From NCBI GenBank assembly GCA_017429695.1, contig JAFROK010000005.1, positions 1 through 64,000 of the forward strand: DNA of 64,000 nt, given 5' to 3'. Below the pieces are notes generated by a model that was given only the letters and a program-made list of their open reading frames with translations, had not been told where the DNA came from and did not search any database. This stretch comes from Clostridia bacterium (GTDB taxonomy: Bacteria > Bacillota > Clostridia > Christensenellales > Aristaeellaceae). Of this stretch, positions 55,072 to 62,397 are shown piece by piece (the stretch's first letter is position 1; every line of letters begins with the position of its first letter). The translations under genes and the position numbers were made by a program.

Positions 55072-55335
55072 AATTTCATAAGAGGCTATGACGAAGACGG
55101 AACAGCGGGAGGTCCCCCAGAGAGCCGGGGTTGGTGGAAACCGGCGGGCTGAAGCTTCATCCCATCGCTTCTGAGCCGGAGATCCGAACGGATATTCTCA
55201 GTAGGCGTCTCCCGTGAATGCTGCGTCAAGGCATAGGACATGACAGTGTCTGAAGAGGTGCGGAAACGCACAATTTGAGTGGTACCGCGAGCCATCATGG
55301 CCCGTCTCAAAGCGAGACGGGCCATTTTATTTTCA
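55072..55335 (+). ncRNA. T-box riboswitch leader
   Basis: The leader has the T-box hallmarks: the AG-rich AGAGAGC (55119-55125) with the distal TTGGTGGAAACC; a lower Stem I in which AGCGGGA near 55104 can pair with TCCC-AT-CGCT near 55160; the core T-box TGAGTGGTACCGCG (55276-55289); and a terminator GGCCCGTCTC-AAAGC-GAGACGGGCC (55299-55323) followed by ATTTTATTTT. Uncharged tRNA should favour the antiterminator and let transcription continue into the downstream gene. The TGGT of the T-box fits a tRNA with discriminator base A. The specifier region is GCTGAAGCTTCATCCC (from 55148); TTC (Phe), followed by the usual A, is my best reading, with GCT (Ala) or CTT (Leu) possible. Confidence 0.92.
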
Positions 55336-55351
55336 AGGGAGGAAATGAACG

Positions 55352-57622
55352 ATGACAACCCAGACTGATCTCACCCAGCTCAGCGCCGTAGCTTCCCGGC
55401 TTCGGGAAATGCGGGAAATCATGGGATGGACCGTGGAGGAAATGGCTGGAAAGACGGAAGTAACTGCCGAGGAATACCGGCAGTATGAAACCGGCTTAGT
55501 GGATATGCCGTTTACCTTCATCCATAAATCTGCCCAGGCGTTCAATATGGAGCTGACCGAGCTGCTGGAAGGCCACAATGCCCGGCTGTCCTCCTATACG
55601 GTGACGCGCCGCGGCAAGGGCGAATCCACGGCCCGGGAGGAAGGCATCGCTATTTCCAACCTGGCGCCGAAATTCAAGGACAAGATTGCCGAGCCGTATT
55701 GGGTTCGTTATGAATATTCCGAGAAGGCGCAGAACGAGCCGATTCACCAGGTCAGCCACCAGGGGCAGGAATTCGATATCGTCGTATCCGGCCACCTGAA
55801 GGTTCAGGTCGGTGAGCATACCGAAGTGCTGGAGGAAGGCGACAGCATCTATTACAATTCCTCCCTGCCGCATGGTATGATCGCCGTGGACGGGAAGGAC
55901 TGCGTATTTATTGCGGTCGTGCTGCCCGGGGAAGAAAAAAAGCCTGAAACGGAAACCGTTGAAATGCCGGCGGGAACTCGGAATGAGTCCCACCTGATCG
56001 CGGAGAAGTTTGTGGATGCGACCGAGGACGGGCAGGGACGGCTGACGGCTATCTCCTTCCCGAACAAGGAAACATTCAACTTCGGCTTCGATATTGTGGA
56101 CGAAATCGCCCGGAAGTATCCGGACAAGCTGGCCATGCTCTATGTGGACAAGCATCATGAAGAGCGCCGCTTCACCTTCAAGGATATCAAGGACGCGTCC
56201 AACCAGTGCGCCAATTATTTCACTTCCCTGGGTATCAAACGGGGCGACCGGGTGATGCTGGTGCTGAAGCGGCATTACCAGTTCTGGTTCTGCATGGTAG
56301 CGCTGCACAAGATGGGCGCCATCGCGATCCCGGCGACCAACCAGCTGAAGGAACATGATTTTGAATACCGCTTCAAGGCGGCCGGCGTGAAGGCCCTGAT
56401 CTGCACCGCGGACGGGGATACCGCCGAGATTGCCGAACGGGCGGCAGCCAACTGCCCCACCGTCCAGACCCTGATCATGGTCAACGGCGAGCGGGAAGGA
56501 TGGCATAACCTGAACGAGGAATATCCGCTGTTTACCCGCCGCTACCGCCGCCCGGAGAACGCTTCCTGCGGCGACGAACCGGCCCTGATGTTCTTTACCT
56601 CCGGCACGACCGGCAATCCGAAGATGGCGCAGCACAAGCACACCTATGCCCTCGGCCATTACGTGACCGCCAAATACTGGCACTGCTGCGAACGGGACGG
56701 CCTGCACCTGACGATCTCCGATACCGGCTGGGGCAAATCCCTCTGGGGCAAGCTGTACGGCCAGTGGATGTGCGAAGGCGCGGTGTTTGTTTACGACTTT
56801 GACAAGTTTGACGCAGCGGACATCCTGCCGATGTTCAAAAAGTACAATATCACCACCTTCTGCGCGCCGCCCACGATGCTGCGGATGTTCATCAAGGTGG
56901 ACCTGGCCAACTACGACCTGTCCTCCATCCATCACATGACCACTGCCGGCGAAGCGCTGAATCCCGAAGTATACCGTCAGTTCGAGAAGGCGACCGGCCT
57001 GAAGATCATGGAAGGCTTCGGACAGACCGAGACGACGCTGACCATCGGCAACCTGTACGGCACGACGCCGAAGATCGGCTCCATGGGCAAGGCGAACCCG
57101 CAGTACGACGTGGACATCGTGGATCACGACGGCAACCCTGTTGCGAACGGTGAGGTCGGCGAAATCGTAATCCATACCGACAAAAATACCCCCTGCGGAC
57201 TGTACAGGGAGTATTACCTGGACGAGGAAAAGACAAAGGAAGCCTGGCACGACGGTATGTACCATACCGGCGATACCGCCTGGCGGGATGAGGACGGCTA
57301 TTTCTGGTATGTCAGCCGGATCGATGATGTGATCAAGTCTTCCGGCTACCGGATCGGGCCGTTTGAAATCGAAAGCGTGATTATGGAACTGCCCTACGTG
57401 CTGGAATGCGGCGTGTCCGCCGAACCGGATGAGATCCGCGGGCAGATCGTCAAGGCCTCCATCGTGCTGACCAAGGGCACAGAAGGAACCGAGGAACTGA
57501 AAAAGGAAATCCAGATGTACGTCAAGGAGCACACCGCTCCCTACAAGTATCCGCGGAAGATTGTCTTCCGGGATGAACTGCCCAAGACAATTTCGGGCAA
57601 GATCCAGCGGAACCTGCTGTAA
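55352..57622 (+). CDS. XRE-cupin-AMP-binding acyl-CoA synthetase fusion
   Basis: 756 residues with three parts. Residues 10-70 are an XRE-type helix-turn-helix (LREMREIMGWTVEEMAGKTEV). Residues about 110-195 are a cupin (EPIHQVSHQGQEFDIVVSGHLKVQV, EGDSIYYNSSLPHGM). From about 235 an adenylate-forming domain follows, with the ATP loop FTSGTTGNPKMAQHKH, EGFGQTETT, YHTGDTAWRDEDGYFWYVSRIDDVIKSSGYRIGPFEIE and the catalytic Lys in PKTISGKIQRN. Carboxylic acids are expected to be activated to CoA thioesters; acetate, aryl acids or branched acids cannot be told apart by eye. The T-box in front puts the gene under amino-acid control. ACGATG with GGGAGGAAA before it fixes the start. Confidence 0.93.
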   Translation: MTTQTDLTQLSAVASRLREMREIMGWTVEEMAGKTEVTAEEYRQYETGLVDMPFTFIHKSAQAFNMELTELLEGHNARLSSYTVTRRGKGESTAREEGIAISNLAPKFKDKIAEPYWVRYEYSEKAQNEPIHQVSHQGQEFDIVVSGHLKVQVGEHTEVLEEGDSIYYNSSLPHGMIAVDGKDCVFIAVVLPGEEKKPETETVEMPAGTRNESHLIAEKFVDATEDGQGRLTAISFPNKETFNFGFDIVDEIARKYPDKLAMLYVDKHHEERRFTFKDIKDASNQCANYFTSLGIKRGDRVMLVLKRHYQFWFCMVALHKMGAIAIPATNQLKEHDFEYRFKAAGVKALICTADGDTAEIAERAAANCPTVQTLIMVNGEREGWHNLNEEYPLFTRRYRRPENASCGDEPALMFFTSGTTGNPKMAQHKHTYALGHYVTAKYWHCCERDGLHLTISDTGWGKSLWGKLYGQWMCEGAVFVYDFDKFDAADILPMFKKYNITTFCAPPTMLRMFIKVDLANYDLSSIHHMTTAGEALNPEVYRQFEKATGLKIMEGFGQTETTLTIGNLYGTTPKIGSMGKANPQYDVDIVDHDGNPVANGEVGEIVIHTDKNTPCGLYREYYLDEEKTKEAWHDGMYHTGDTAWRDEDGYFWYVSRIDDVIKSSGYRIGPFEIESVIMELPYVLECGVSAEPDEIRGQIVKASIVLTKGTEGTEELKKEIQMYVKEHTAPYKYPRKIVFRDELPKTISGKIQRNLL

Positions 57623-58723: not shown

Positions 58724-59785
58724 ATGGAACTGGAACAGGCATACCGGGAGATTGAAACAAGGCTGGACAGAATCGATTTTTCATTCCTCTTTCACGGGTT
58801 TCACCGCTTTCCCTTCGCCCTGTACAATGAAACACAGGCGTATATGGACGGCCGGTATTTTGATAAACCGGATAACTTCCTGGGCAGTACATCGATTCGG
58901 TATAACGGGAAGGAAACGGCGATATGGAATCTGTCCGATCATCTGAGCGACCCTGATGTGCTGACGTCGAAAATTGTGCATGAGATGCTGCACGCCTTCC
59001 AGAACGACTCCGGTGAAAAACGCTGGGCGGATGAACGCGCAGCGCTGGTGAAATACCGCTATGAGGAAGCGAATTTTGCTGCCCGCATGGAGGAGGCCGC
59101 CCTGATCCGCGAATGCCTGGCAGGGGAAAAGCCGGAAGCGTTTGCCCGGCTGCTTCAGCTGCGCAAGGCGCGTATGGAGCGCTTCCCGTTTGTTTATGAC
59201 TATGAAGCGCGGATTGAGCAGATTGAGGGAACGGCCCACTTTGTGGAACATGAAGCGCTGGCCCAGCTGGATCCGGCAAAAGCGGATAAGAGCTGGACCG
59301 AAATGATAGAGGGCCTGGCGGATCCTGCACGATATTTTCCGGTGCGCGCGGTGACCTACCTGTCCGGCGCAGCCTTTATTGCCTGCCTGCGCAAATACAC
59401 AGATATGGTGACTGATGAATTCAGTGATACGCCCTTTGCCATTGCGGCGATTGCGGATGCAGCACCATGTGAAATACCGAAGCACAACGCGCGGGTAGCG
59501 GAATGCATGGCAGAGTGGAAAGCAAAGCACCGGGACCTGGTTACCCGGACGCTGGAAAAAGGCGAGATTGTGCTGGAAGGAACATACCGGCTGATCGTGT
59601 GGAATGTATATGACGGCACATGGGACGGACAGTATGCAGTGCTGACATATTTTATCGGATATATAGAGGGGGAGGAACTGCCGGATACGGATGAAAAGCT
59701 GTTTGCACAGATGAAAACGCTTAACGGCAATTTCGTCGCAGAAGTGGATGAAAATCTGCGCCTGACCCGCGTCTGGAGACAGTAA
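58724..59785 (+). CDS. HExxH-motif protein, putative zinc metallopeptidase
   Basis: 353 residues from ATG 58724 (AGGAGGG 9 bases before). A zinc-binding HEMLH (residues 86-90) sits in a helix (SKIVHEMLHAFQND), and EGTAHFVEHEAL near residue 165 offers a third ligand of the gluzincin type. The part between is a helical region with many Arg and Glu. The C-terminal 90 residues (IVLEGTYRLIVWNVYDGTWDGQYAVLTYFIG) form a separate beta-rich domain. There is no signal peptide, so a cytoplasmic peptidase-like protein is likely. Family not recognised beyond the motif; activity is an inference from the zinc site. Confidence 0.75.
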   Translation: MELEQAYREIETRLDRIDFSFLFHGFHRFPFALYNETQAYMDGRYFDKPDNFLGSTSIRYNGKETAIWNLSDHLSDPDVLTSKIVHEMLHAFQNDSGEKRWADERAALVKYRYEEANFAARMEEAALIRECLAGEKPEAFARLLQLRKARMERFPFVYDYEARIEQIEGTAHFVEHEALAQLDPAKADKSWTEMIEGLADPARYFPVRAVTYLSGAAFIACLRKYTDMVTDEFSDTPFAIAAIADAAPCEIPKHNARVAECMAEWKAKHRDLVTRTLEKGEIVLEGTYRLIVWNVYDGTWDGQYAVLTYFIGYIEGEELPDTDEKLFAQMKTLNGNFVAEVDENLRLTRVWRQ

Positions 59786-59841
59786 ATCGCACCACCGGAA
59801 GGGAAAAACAATCCGAATACAATGTTTTTTCAATTTCCCTA

Positions 59842-59870
59842 TTGACATACTGGGTGAATGATGGTAAGAT
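59842..59870 (+). promoter_or_regulatory. Promoter of the metY-cysK leader
   Basis: TTGACA (59842-59847), 17 bases, TAAGAT (59865-59870); the transcript should start near 59877. Confidence 0.82.
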
Positions 59871-59902
59871 GCAGCCAATCAAACGGAAGGAGGCGCGGAA
59901 AA

Positions 59903-60025
59903 ATGTTCCGGACCGGACACAGTCAGGCTATGATGTGTTGTCGAATGCATATCTCCCGGGCATGGAATATGACAGGAACGTCCGGCATGTTTTCCTTACG
60001 CCGCCGGATGATGCGATGTTGCTGA
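59903..60025 (+). CDS. Cys/Met-rich leader peptide (40 residues)
   Basis: ATG 59903 follows AAGGAGG (59887-59893) with a 9-base spacing, one of the strongest ribosome-binding sites in the window, only about ten bases after the expected transcript start. The 40-residue product has four Cys in two adjacent pairs: in AMMCCRM (residues 12-13) and in RMMRCC (39-40), directly before the TGA. It has eight Met, three of them in MM pairs with the first one. It has no signal peptide or membrane segment. Leader peptides that sense an amino acid carry runs of its codons in this way; the genes behind make cysteine and homocysteine. The product is unlikely to have a function of its own. Confidence 0.7.
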   Translation: MFRTGHSQAMMCCRMHISRAWNMTGTSGMFSLRRRMMRCC

Positions 60026-60051
60026 TCGGTGTTCATCCTGATGTCATTTGC

Positions 60052-60088
60052 CCGGGAGCTTCCAGAAAGCAGATCCCGGTTTTTCTTT
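60052..60088 (+). terminator. Intrinsic terminator (attenuator) before metY
   Basis: CCGGGA (60052-60057) pairs with TCCCGG (60074-60079), with an inner GCTT-CCAGA-AAGC helix, followed by TTTTTCTTT (60080-60088). It lies between promoter and gene, so it can only make sense as a conditional stop. Confidence 0.8.
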
Positions 60089-60126
60089 ACCCCAATAACG
60101 GTTAATGATGAAAGGAGAAAATCAAA

Positions 60127-61419
60127 ATGAGTCAGTATAAATTCGAAACCCTTCAGCTTCACGTAGGACAGGAACAGCCGGATCCCGCAACCGACGCGCG
60201 GGCGGTACCGATTTACCAGACGACCTCTTACGTATTCCGCAACAGCCAGCATGCGGCTGACCGATTCGGCCTGGCGGATGCCGGAAACATCTATGGCCGG
60301 CTGACCAACTCCACCCAGGATGTGCTGGAAAAGCGCATAGCGGCCCTGGAAGGCGGAAGCGCCGCCCTGGCCGTTGCATCCGGCGCCGCGGCGATTACCT
60401 ATACCATTCAGGCGCTGGCCGCAGACGGCGGACATATCGTTGCCCAGAAGACGATTTACGGCGGAAGCTTCAACCTGCTGGCCCATACGCTTCCGCAGTA
60501 CGGAATTCATACCACCTTCGTGAATGCCCACGACCTGAAGGAAGTGGAGAACGCGATTCAGGATGACACCCGGGCCATCTACCTGGAAACGCTGGGAAAC
60601 CCGAACAGCGATATTCCGGATATTGACACGATTGCGGAAATTGCGCACCGGCACGGTCTTCCCCTGGTGATTGACAACACCTTCGGTACACCCTACCTGA
60701 TCCGGCCGATTGAACACGGCGCGGACATCGTGGTACATTCCGCCACAAAGTTTATCGGCGGCCACGGCACAACGCTGGGCGGAATCATCGTGGAATCCGG
60801 AAAGTTCAACTGGAAGGCCAGCGGCAAGTATCCGAACATTGCGGCGCCCAACCCGAGCTATCACGGCGTATCCTTCTACGACGTCGTCGGTCCTGCGGCT
60901 TTTGTGACCTATATCCGGGCGATCCTGCTGCGGGATACGGGAGCGACGATCTCTCCGTTCAACGCATTCCTGCTGCTGCAGGGCGTGGAAACCCTGTCCA
61001 TCCGGCTGGATCGGCACGCAGAGAATACCAAAAAGGTGGTGGAATACCTGAGCAGCCATCCGCTGGTGGAAAAGGTAAACCATCCCTCTCTTCCGGATCA
61101 TCCGGACCATGCACTGTATCAGAAGTATTTCCCGAACGGCGGCGCGTCCATCTTTACCTTCGAGATCAAAGGCGGGCAGAAGGAAGCCTGGGCTTTTATC
61201 GACCATCTGGAGATTTTCTCCCTCCTGGCCAACGTGGCGGACGTTAAGAGCCTGGTGATCCATCCGGCATCCACCACCCACTCCCAGCTTTCCGAAGAGG
61301 AACTGCTGGACCAGGGAATCCGCCGGAACACGATCCGGCTTTCCATCGGCACGGAGCATATCGACGATATTATCGCGGATCTGGAAAAAGGATTTGCGGC
61401 AGTAAAGGAACTTGAGTAA
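60127..61419 (+). CDS. metY: O-acetylhomoserine sulfhydrylase
   Basis: 430 residues, typical length. A PLP enzyme that makes homocysteine from O-acetylhomoserine and sulfide, the direct sulfhydrylation route to methionine. Start KFETLQLHVGQEQPDPATDARAVPIYQTTSYVF, PLP contacts in YGRLTNSTQDVLEKRIAALEGG and LGNPNSDIPDID, PLP-binding Lys208 in HSATKFIGGHGTTLGG. The length and the QPDPATDARAVPIYQT motif separate it from cystathionine gamma-synthase, which is shorter. AAAGGAG precedes the start. cysK follows 45 bases later, so both sulfide-fixing steps are under one attenuated promoter. Confidence 0.95.
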   Translation: MSQYKFETLQLHVGQEQPDPATDARAVPIYQTTSYVFRNSQHAADRFGLADAGNIYGRLTNSTQDVLEKRIAALEGGSAALAVASGAAAITYTIQALAADGGHIVAQKTIYGGSFNLLAHTLPQYGIHTTFVNAHDLKEVENAIQDDTRAIYLETLGNPNSDIPDIDTIAEIAHRHGLPLVIDNTFGTPYLIRPIEHGADIVVHSATKFIGGHGTTLGGIIVESGKFNWKASGKYPNIAAPNPSYHGVSFYDVVGPAAFVTYIRAILLRDTGATISPFNAFLLLQGVETLSIRLDRHAENTKKVVEYLSSHPLVEKVNHPSLPDHPDHALYQKYFPNGGASIFTFEIKGGQKEAWAFIDHLEIFSLLANVADVKSLVIHPASTTHSQLSEEELLDQGIRRNTIRLSIGTEHIDDIIADLEKGFAAVKELE

Positions 61420-61464
61420 AATAAAAAACCAATCAGAGATGATATGGATAGGGAGGAAACGGAC

Positions 61465-62397
61465 ATGGCAAATATTTATAAGGGAACCCTGGGACTGATC
61501 GGAAATACACCCCTGGTGGAAGTAACCAATATCGAAAAGGAACTGGGACTGGAAGCCACCGTCCTGGTGAAACTGGAATACTTCAATCCCGCTGGAAGCG
61601 TGAAAGACCGGATTGCCAAAGCGATGATTGAAGACGCGGAAGCGAAAGGCCTGCTGAAGGAAGGCTCCGTCATTATTGAGCCGACCAGCGGAAACACCGG
61701 TATCGGACTGGCTTCCATTGCCGCGGCCAAGGGCTACCGCATTATCCTGACCATGCCGGAAACCATGAGCGTGGAACGCCGGAACATCCTGAAAGCTTAC
61801 GGCGCGGAGCTGGTGCTGACGGAAGGCGCAAAGGGCATGAAGGGCGCGATTGCCAAGGCGGAGGAGCTGGCGAAGGAAATCTCGGGCAGCTTTATTCCGG
61901 GACAGTTTGTGAATCCCGCCAACCCGGCAATCCATAAGGCGACCACAGGACCCGAAATCTGGAAGGATACAGACGGCAAGGTGGATATCTTCATCGCAGG
62001 CGTCGGAACCGGCGGCACGGTGACCGGAACCGGCGAATACCTGAAGGAGCAGAACCCGGCCGTGAAAGTGGTGGCCCTGGAGCCGGAAGATTCGCCTGTG
62101 CTTTCCGAAGGCCGGTCCGGCGCGCATAAGATTCAGGGAATCGGCGCCGGGTTTGTGCCGGATGTGCTGAATACGAAGGTCTATGATGAGATCTTCAAGG
62201 CGTCCAACGCGGATGCTTTTGCAACGGCCAAGCTGCTGGCCCGGAAGGAAGGTATCTCCGTGGGTATCTCTTCCGGAGCCGCGTTGTTCGGCGCGATTCA
62301 GCTGGCCAAGCGGCCTGAGAACAAGGGCAAAGTGATTGTTGCCCTGCTTCCGGACAGCGGCGACCGGTACTACTCCACCGCTCTGTTTACGGAATAA
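61465..62397 (+). CDS. cysK: Cysteine synthase A (O-acetylserine sulfhydrylase)
   Basis: 310 residues from ATG 61465 ([20 protein letters not shown]), GGGAGG 8 bases before. Makes cysteine from O-acetylserine and sulfide. PLP-binding Lys47 in [16 protein letters not shown], substrate loop [12 protein letters not shown], phosphate-binding [17 protein letters not shown] and the C-terminal SSGAALFGA. Together with metY it makes the sulfur amino-acid pair of the operon. A terminator follows. Confidence 0.96.

Follow-up and report, generated by a model that had tools for sequence, protein, structure and literature searches.

The metY-cysK operon of the Clostridia bacterium studied here is very probably governed by a cysteine-responsive, ribosome-mediated transcription attenuator, which we recognised by sequence comparison in a window of 64,000 nucleotides (the whole stretch of DNA that was analysed). 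A short reading frame rich in cysteine codons precedes the operon and runs into the first strand of an antiterminator, the last strand of which is shared with an intrinsic terminator. In some Clostridia of the rumen and gut, such a leader appears to turn on sulfur amino-acid genes when charged tRNA-Cys is low, and this attenuator is probably combined with an operator of the Rrf2 type.

Architecture of the metY-cysK leader

All parts of the element lie on the forward strand. The sigma-70-type promoter (59842-59870) can be read off the window sequence, with TTGACA at 59842-59847, a 17-base spacer and TAAGAT at 59865-59870, and is matched by the consensus of 87 TTGAC-bearing leaders. It is followed by the Shine-Dalgarno sequence AAGGAGG (59887-59893) and by a leader frame of 40 codons (59903-60025), MFRTGHSQAMMCCRMHISRAWNMTGTSGMFSLRRRMMRCC, which begins with the ATG at 59903 and ends with the stop TGA at 60023-60025. 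Codons 12 and 13 are both UGU (59936-59941) and form the proposed stall site; a second Cys pair (60017-60022) lies directly 5' of the stop. Immediately 3' of the first pair is CGAAUG (59942-59947), a hexamer that is near-invariant among relatives.

Beyond it lie the antiterminator 5' arm CUCCCGGGCA (59953-59962) and, on comparative evidence, an inner arm AUGAC (59969-59973), which is AUGGC in most relatives and is compensated in the window by the inner arm GUCAU (60043-60047). The antiterminator 3' arm UGCCCGGGAG (60049-60058) is common to the 5' arm of the intrinsic terminator (60052-60088), which consists of CCGGGAGCTT...AAGC...TCCCGG (60052-60079) and a T-run (60080-60088). Read directly in the window, CTCCCGGGCA at 59953-59962 is the perfect complement of TGCCCGGGAG at 60049-60058. 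The general layout of the element is Cys codon(s)-CGAAUG-N5-CUCCCGGGCA-N6-AUGGC…GCCAU-UU-UGCCCGGGAG-terminator. Downstream are metY, encoding an O-acetylhomoserine/O-acetylserine sulfhydrylase (60127-61419; TIGR01326, 626 bits), and cysK, encoding cysteine synthase A (61444-62397; TIGR01139).

The promoter, AAGGAGG, the 40-codon frame, the two Cys pairs, the 10-base complement and the terminator had been described in a first-pass annotation of this DNA, and all are found where it placed them. Its stall geometry, with a ribosome on the first Cys pair ending just short of the antiterminator arm, also holds, with 11 bases between CGA and the arm. We consider these parts of the window to be beyond chance because relatives retain them with compensatory changes.

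At the Rfam gathering score the window had no match; when 59700-60200 was searched up to an E-value of 10, only one chance-looking match and no T-box were obtained, and the leader peptide had no match in NCBIfam. A T-box (RF00230), a SAM riboswitch or another Rfam family was therefore rejected for the window leader, for lack of a covariance-model match. The covariance model that we built finds leaders whose window example has no Rfam or NCBIfam match. Six T-box-like leaders were detected in the window's own genome at E-values up to 0.001, one of them above the cut-off, and by eye none stands before a recognisable cys gene. Within the window, a T-box-like leader at 55079-55312 (70 bits; gathering score 93) precedes a gene at 55352 whose product combines HTH, cupin and AMP-binding domains, and a similar-looking pair is present on C26.

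Cysteine codons in the leaders of relatives

We collected 110 metY loci, with some genomes counted twice, from 61 genomes near that of the window (30 best matches taken as loci) and from the best 80 of at least 583 contig matches. Of these loci, 49 carry CGAATG-N5-CTC(C/T)C(A/G)G upstream of metY, 42 found by nucleotide pattern (40 distinct) and seven by the covariance model. Conservation of the small frame, its Cys-Cys pairs and the 10-base complement among relatives had been named as a test in the first-pass annotation, and in part it holds. Seventeen loci of the same genus, that of the window among them, have a metY of at least 89% identity. In these the element is always present upstream of metY, 9 or 10 pairs of the complement are kept in all 17 and a TTTT run follows the arm in 16, but adjacent Cys-Cys occurs in only eight. 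A Cys codon nevertheless stands within the last two codons before CGAAUG in 17/17; the kept feature is therefore the Cys codon, not the pair.

A translatable short frame with a Shine-Dalgarno sequence lies between promoter and operon, as expected of an attenuator: among 105 distinct CGAATG elements, 98 are in frame and open, three are off frame and four have no recognised Shine-Dalgarno start. The best Shine-Dalgarno start reads through the Cys codons in frame in every one of the 42 nucleotide-pattern matches upstream of metY (40 distinct). Codons of the pathway amino acid are also conserved at a fixed place, with a Cys codon at most two codons before CGAATG in 101/105 elements and at most three before it in 104/105. 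At least two Cys codons are found within the five preceding codons in 76/105. The adjacent pair directly before CGAATG is present in 61 of the 105 and missing in 44, and as a strictly conserved feature it was ruled out by this count together with the 8/17 above. Cys also occurs within the last three leader codons in 40/105 leaders.

Overall, Cys makes up 10.9% of 3560 leader residues, against 1.04% in the large frames of 93 carrier loci (93,084 codons). Background codon use was taken as the control because ATGTGT holds an off-frame TGT, which raises the count in frame +1; the Cys count in other frames (66/105 in frame +1 for the last two codons, 0 in frame +2) was discarded for this purpose. 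UGU is the rarer Cys codon in the window (67 versus 209) and represents 35% of Cys codons in carrier loci, yet among the 191 Cys codons in the three positions preceding CGAATG, 170 are UGU. CGA, which follows, represents 1.9% of Arg codons in the window and 5% in carrier loci. We dropped CGAAUG as a strict invariant and call it near-invariant, because it is missing in nine of 77 model matches (CTG, CGC and TGC are among the replacements of CGA) and the covariance model was trained on CGAAUG sequences.

The element is absent upstream of metY in 12 loci whose metY is 73-75% identical (L023-L034). In three of them (L024, L027, L031) a model match lies on the other side of metY and is directed away from it, and in two more genomes of this group (L115, L116) the element is about 2.5 kb away and is followed by an ABC permease. 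Altogether, 61/110 metY loci lack the strict element and 51 of these also lack any other Cys leader frame; the other 10 have a Shine-Dalgarno-led frame with at least two Cys, among them L075, L087 and L093, where weaker covariance-model matches occur upstream of metY. Twenty of the 61 were scanned at gathering score and gave no SAM riboswitch and no T-box, and one purine riboswitch.

Some metY loci carry other cysteine-rich leaders. At L084, 207 bases before metY, we observed a leader of 39 residues, MSYALINKSYEYMCSNRMCCCRIGSCRMCCCDMCNDCID, in which 10 codons are Cys and the antiterminator pattern is missing. In two Treponema metY loci (L106, L113), a site of the CCTATTGAC type is accompanied by another short Cys frame, NFRNG(R/V)MCLC, which abuts a hairpin and is perhaps a simpler occlusion attenuator.

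Alternative structures and rival readings

Covariation in two helices was a further check suggested in the first-pass annotation; it is borne out for the antiterminator, and the terminator covaries weakly. In 41 aligned sequences, the 21-pair antiterminator has 92.4% of cells paired versus 30-48% when slid, 12 of the 21 pairs are changed on both sides, and 0/500 shuffles reach the observed value on each of five measures. Among 79 distinct model-match rows, in an alignment fitted to the model (two of its 81 matches are weak antisense), 19/21 pairs change on both sides, in 146 cells. Compensated arms include CTCCCGGACA/TGTCCGGGAG in L017 and L019 and CTCTCAGACA/TGTCTGGGAG in L081. The terminator is 80% paired, and 38, 6, 85, 131 and 95 of 500 shuffles reach the five measures. 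The two structures are mutually exclusive, and this is conserved in relatives, as in known attenuators. Taken with the relatives' frame and Cys codons, the covariation of the antiterminator supports the earlier proposal of leader-peptide attenuation with exclusive structures.

Folded as a single sequence, the window keeps the outer helix, but its inner pairs fall in another register (59967-59977 with 60036-60044) and its apical hairpin is a different one (UCCGGC at 59981-59986 with GCCGGA at 60003-60008). We could fold 79 of the 105 elements, the others having no recognised arm or T-run. Masking the Cys codons as if occupied by a ribosome favours the antiterminator in 70/79, and masking segment 2 in the same way favours the terminator in 78/79. 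Without a ribosome, the equilibrium still lies with the antiterminator in 62/79, and when the ribosome is placed at the stop codon the antiterminator wins in 45/79 and the terminator in 33; termination at high cysteine therefore needs kinetics or an unseen sequestering helix. A candidate protector helix, GTCGAATG/CGTTCGGC, is 78% paired versus 27-42% when slid, with 52, 182, 44, 58 and 33 of 500 shuffles reaching the five measures, and consensus folding gave no stable structure before segment 3. Because the stop codon is at least 21 bases from the antiterminator 3' arm in all 79 folded elements, a ribosome terminating there would leave the terminator unblocked.

The attenuator may work as follows. 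Once transcription has begun, a step that may itself be under an Rrf2-type repressor, a ribosome would start on the leader frame. With charged tRNA-Cys scarce, it would stall on UGU, with its leading edge immediately 5' of CUCCCGGGCA, and this arm, AUGGC/GCCAU and UGCCCGGGAG would zip into the antiterminator, letting RNA polymerase enter metY-cysK. With cysteine plentiful, the ribosome would traverse the antiterminator 5' strand to the stop, the terminator hairpin would win and transcription would end near 60088. Such termination is presumably kinetic, the moving ribosome preventing the inner helices from zipping until the local terminator has formed.

That cysteine alone is sensed is not settled, because Met codons are enriched too: they make up 9.9% of leader residues against a background of 1.75%, at least one is found in the five codons before CGAAUG in 96/105 elements, MCMCM occurs in several leaders, and metY and NlpA/MetQ-type importers are among the targets. 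Both sulfur amino acids might thus be sensed, with Met codons also stalling the ribosome and either uncharged tRNA opening the operon, which would be an extension of the cysteine attenuator and not an alternative to it. We regard this as possible but doubtful: Met starvation would also block leader initiation, ATG beside TGT may reflect a base-level preference, and Cys is more constant than Met (104 versus 96 of 105).

It is very unlikely that the element is instead a metabolite riboswitch or a protein-binding RNA that overlaps the frame by chance, with the CUCCCGGGCA-N6-AUGGC internal-loop helix as its binding site. Such an RNA could account for the near-invariant bases (CGAAUG, CUCCCGGG) and for a covarying fold of several helices, but its loops vary, the window leader has no Rfam match beyond the chance-looking one, and the invariant bases outside helices sit in a coding frame, which is kept in 42/42 cases with the Cys codon retained in 101/105. 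The conserved RM..SRA core and the frequent MMCC stretch could also be read as a nascent-peptide arrest, in which the peptide itself would bind cysteine or another effector and so stall the ribosome. This we consider extremely improbable. In the nascent chain before the stall site, M and C are frequent at positions -3 to -1, but positions -6 to -4 are variable, with no residue above 43%, and SRA is accounted for by base pairing. The leader Arg is encoded by CGA in 43/43 leaders found at the peptide level, which points to a constraint on bases or codons.

Operator-like sites, known systems and target genes

TTGAC is present in 87 of the 101 leaders with a recognised start, with the consensus CCTATTGACATAGTAGG, and a CymR/IscR-like palindrome is found in the majority of leader promoters. 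Allowing at most three mismatches, we found CCTATTGACATAGTAGG upstream of 46/49 element-bearing metY loci, 24/61 element-less ones and 1/110 shuffles. In the window, a CCTATTGACATACTGGG palindrome lies across the -35 box (59838-59854) and is a possible operator for an Rrf2-family (CymR/IscR-like) regulator; the CymR and IscR motifs are described as similar (PMC3828012). By itself, the palindrome in the window does not reach significance (with up to two mismatches, 0.19 matches are expected; 17/100 shuffles had one), and it gains weight because relatives carry it. As a genome-wide regulon marker the operator was rejected: the window's own genome has six sites with at most one mismatch versus 10 for the reversed pattern, and without enrichment the case for an operator therefore rests on relatives. 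The same genome has an operator-like site upstream of a frame that is followed by a same-strand Rrf2 gene (C56:83029-83418), and a second Rrf2 gene on C22. An Rrf2 protein may thus be the repressor at the candidate leader-promoter palindromes.

Two more operator-like sites stand back to back (G000:C56:77768 and 77813) between a gene for an SDF-family symporter and an iscS-like/NifU pair, which suggests that cystine uptake and Fe-S assembly share a regulator.

A broader and rather unlikely reading would make a two-position ribosome ruler and the Rrf2 layer into a two-layer sulfur regulon that extends beyond a single class of the phylum. A ribosome halted at UGU by starvation would have its edge just short of the antiterminator arm, and one codon on, at the rare CGA-AUG, it would cover the arm. 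A single codon step, reading the charging of Cys and perhaps Met tRNAs, would then decide between antitermination and termination, with Rrf2 repressing the same promoters as a layer beneath the attenuator.

Cysteine control in clostridia has been described as consisting of T-boxes, S-boxes and CymR-type repressors, and clostridia whose cysK lacks a T-box may use other mechanisms (PMC2940859). The element would be such a mechanism, a leader-peptide attenuator for sulfur amino-acid synthesis and import in some of the Clostridia. In C. perfringens, the Cys T-box precedes cysK-cysE, cysP1, cysP2 and ubiG (PMC2940859); there too tRNA-Cys charging controls premature termination before similar genes, but by direct tRNA-RNA binding without translation, and the window leader has no T-box match. 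CymR, an Rrf2 repressor acting on cysK, tcyP and mccAB (PMC3828012, PMC2940859), controls initiation, whereas here the putative Rrf2 repression would be stacked on an attenuator.

Leader peptides of related kinds are known from other bacteria. The uORFC-8-2 motif, reported only before cysS in Rhodobacterales (PMC8632094), is a short frame with tandem Cys codons followed by an intrinsic terminator, for which ribosome-mediated attenuation is likewise proposed. Compared by description, its Cys codons lie within the first stem, whereas here the antiterminator begins after them, and the genes concerned are biosynthesis and import genes of Clostridia. Leaders with Cys runs also precede cys operons and cbs in Mycobacterium, P. 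acnes and B. longum (PMC1262725). They too are Cys-codon frames before cysteine genes, but with the runs near the stop and no conserved terminator hairpin; Rho is suggested for them. In Bacilli, histidine leader peptides before hisZ and hisS* (PMC2965389) are a case of leader-peptide attenuation replacing a T-box in the Firmicutes, in contrast for histidine and hisS-family genes; the available portion of that article mentions no cysteine leaders. Neither cysteine nor Lachnospiraceae turned up in a word search of the body text of PMC11109978 and PMC6429828. In the literature searched, with most subscription journals and bioRxiv outside it, we found no account of the clostridial element itself.

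The genome of the window contains two strong copies of the element, one before metY-cysK and one before a metQNI-type importer operon that encodes an NlpA/MetQ-like lipoprotein, an ABC ATPase with a NIL domain and a permease; a third match (E 2.67) is noise. We tallied targets for 77 distinct model matches, a chosen set that excludes the training loci and is no census. Among the 76 with a downstream frame, metY comes next in 34, and 30 of the 42 other targets were scanned with Pfam. Ten of these have NlpA and/or SBP_bac_3, four are ABC permeases/ATPases, one is a cysK-type PALP, four are Cys_Met_Meta_PP, one is ThiF plus rhodanese and one is Prok-JAB; seven others are LysR, cyclase, PFL-like, SDR, GST_C, M20 and MFS, and two have no match. 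In sum, 21/30 are enzymes of sulfur amino acids, genes of the sulfur-carrier type or NlpA/SBP_bac_3/ABC importers. Among the weakest model matches, those with E above 1e-5 (L190, L191, L210), some may be false.

The exact pattern was found in 8/297 genomes of the order, with one match for the backward control. The covariance model matched 13/391 genomes of the class, 5/398 of the phylum (three outside the class) and 40/299 in the family of Lachnospiraceae bacterium AC2029 (G330), with stricter filters in these large searches, so that weak matches are lost. The records of Lachnospiraceae bacterium AC2029 and YSD2013 (L074, L082) contain the element. Two of the three matches outside the class have CCC or CCCC before RM in the leader and metY after it. 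In 30 chosen genomes, 25 match, all picked for a locus with the element or a weak match, and the five chosen without the element at the locus have no match anywhere in the genome. Because presence is patchy, this distribution suggests loss or transfer.

An NlpA/MetQ-like lipoprotein encoded in the window's own genome (L125:1782-2681, C17) appears circularly permuted with respect to the NlpA protein of L179: its residues 27-165 resemble residues 139-277 of the latter (31%), and its residues 201-292 resemble residues 30-135 (29%).
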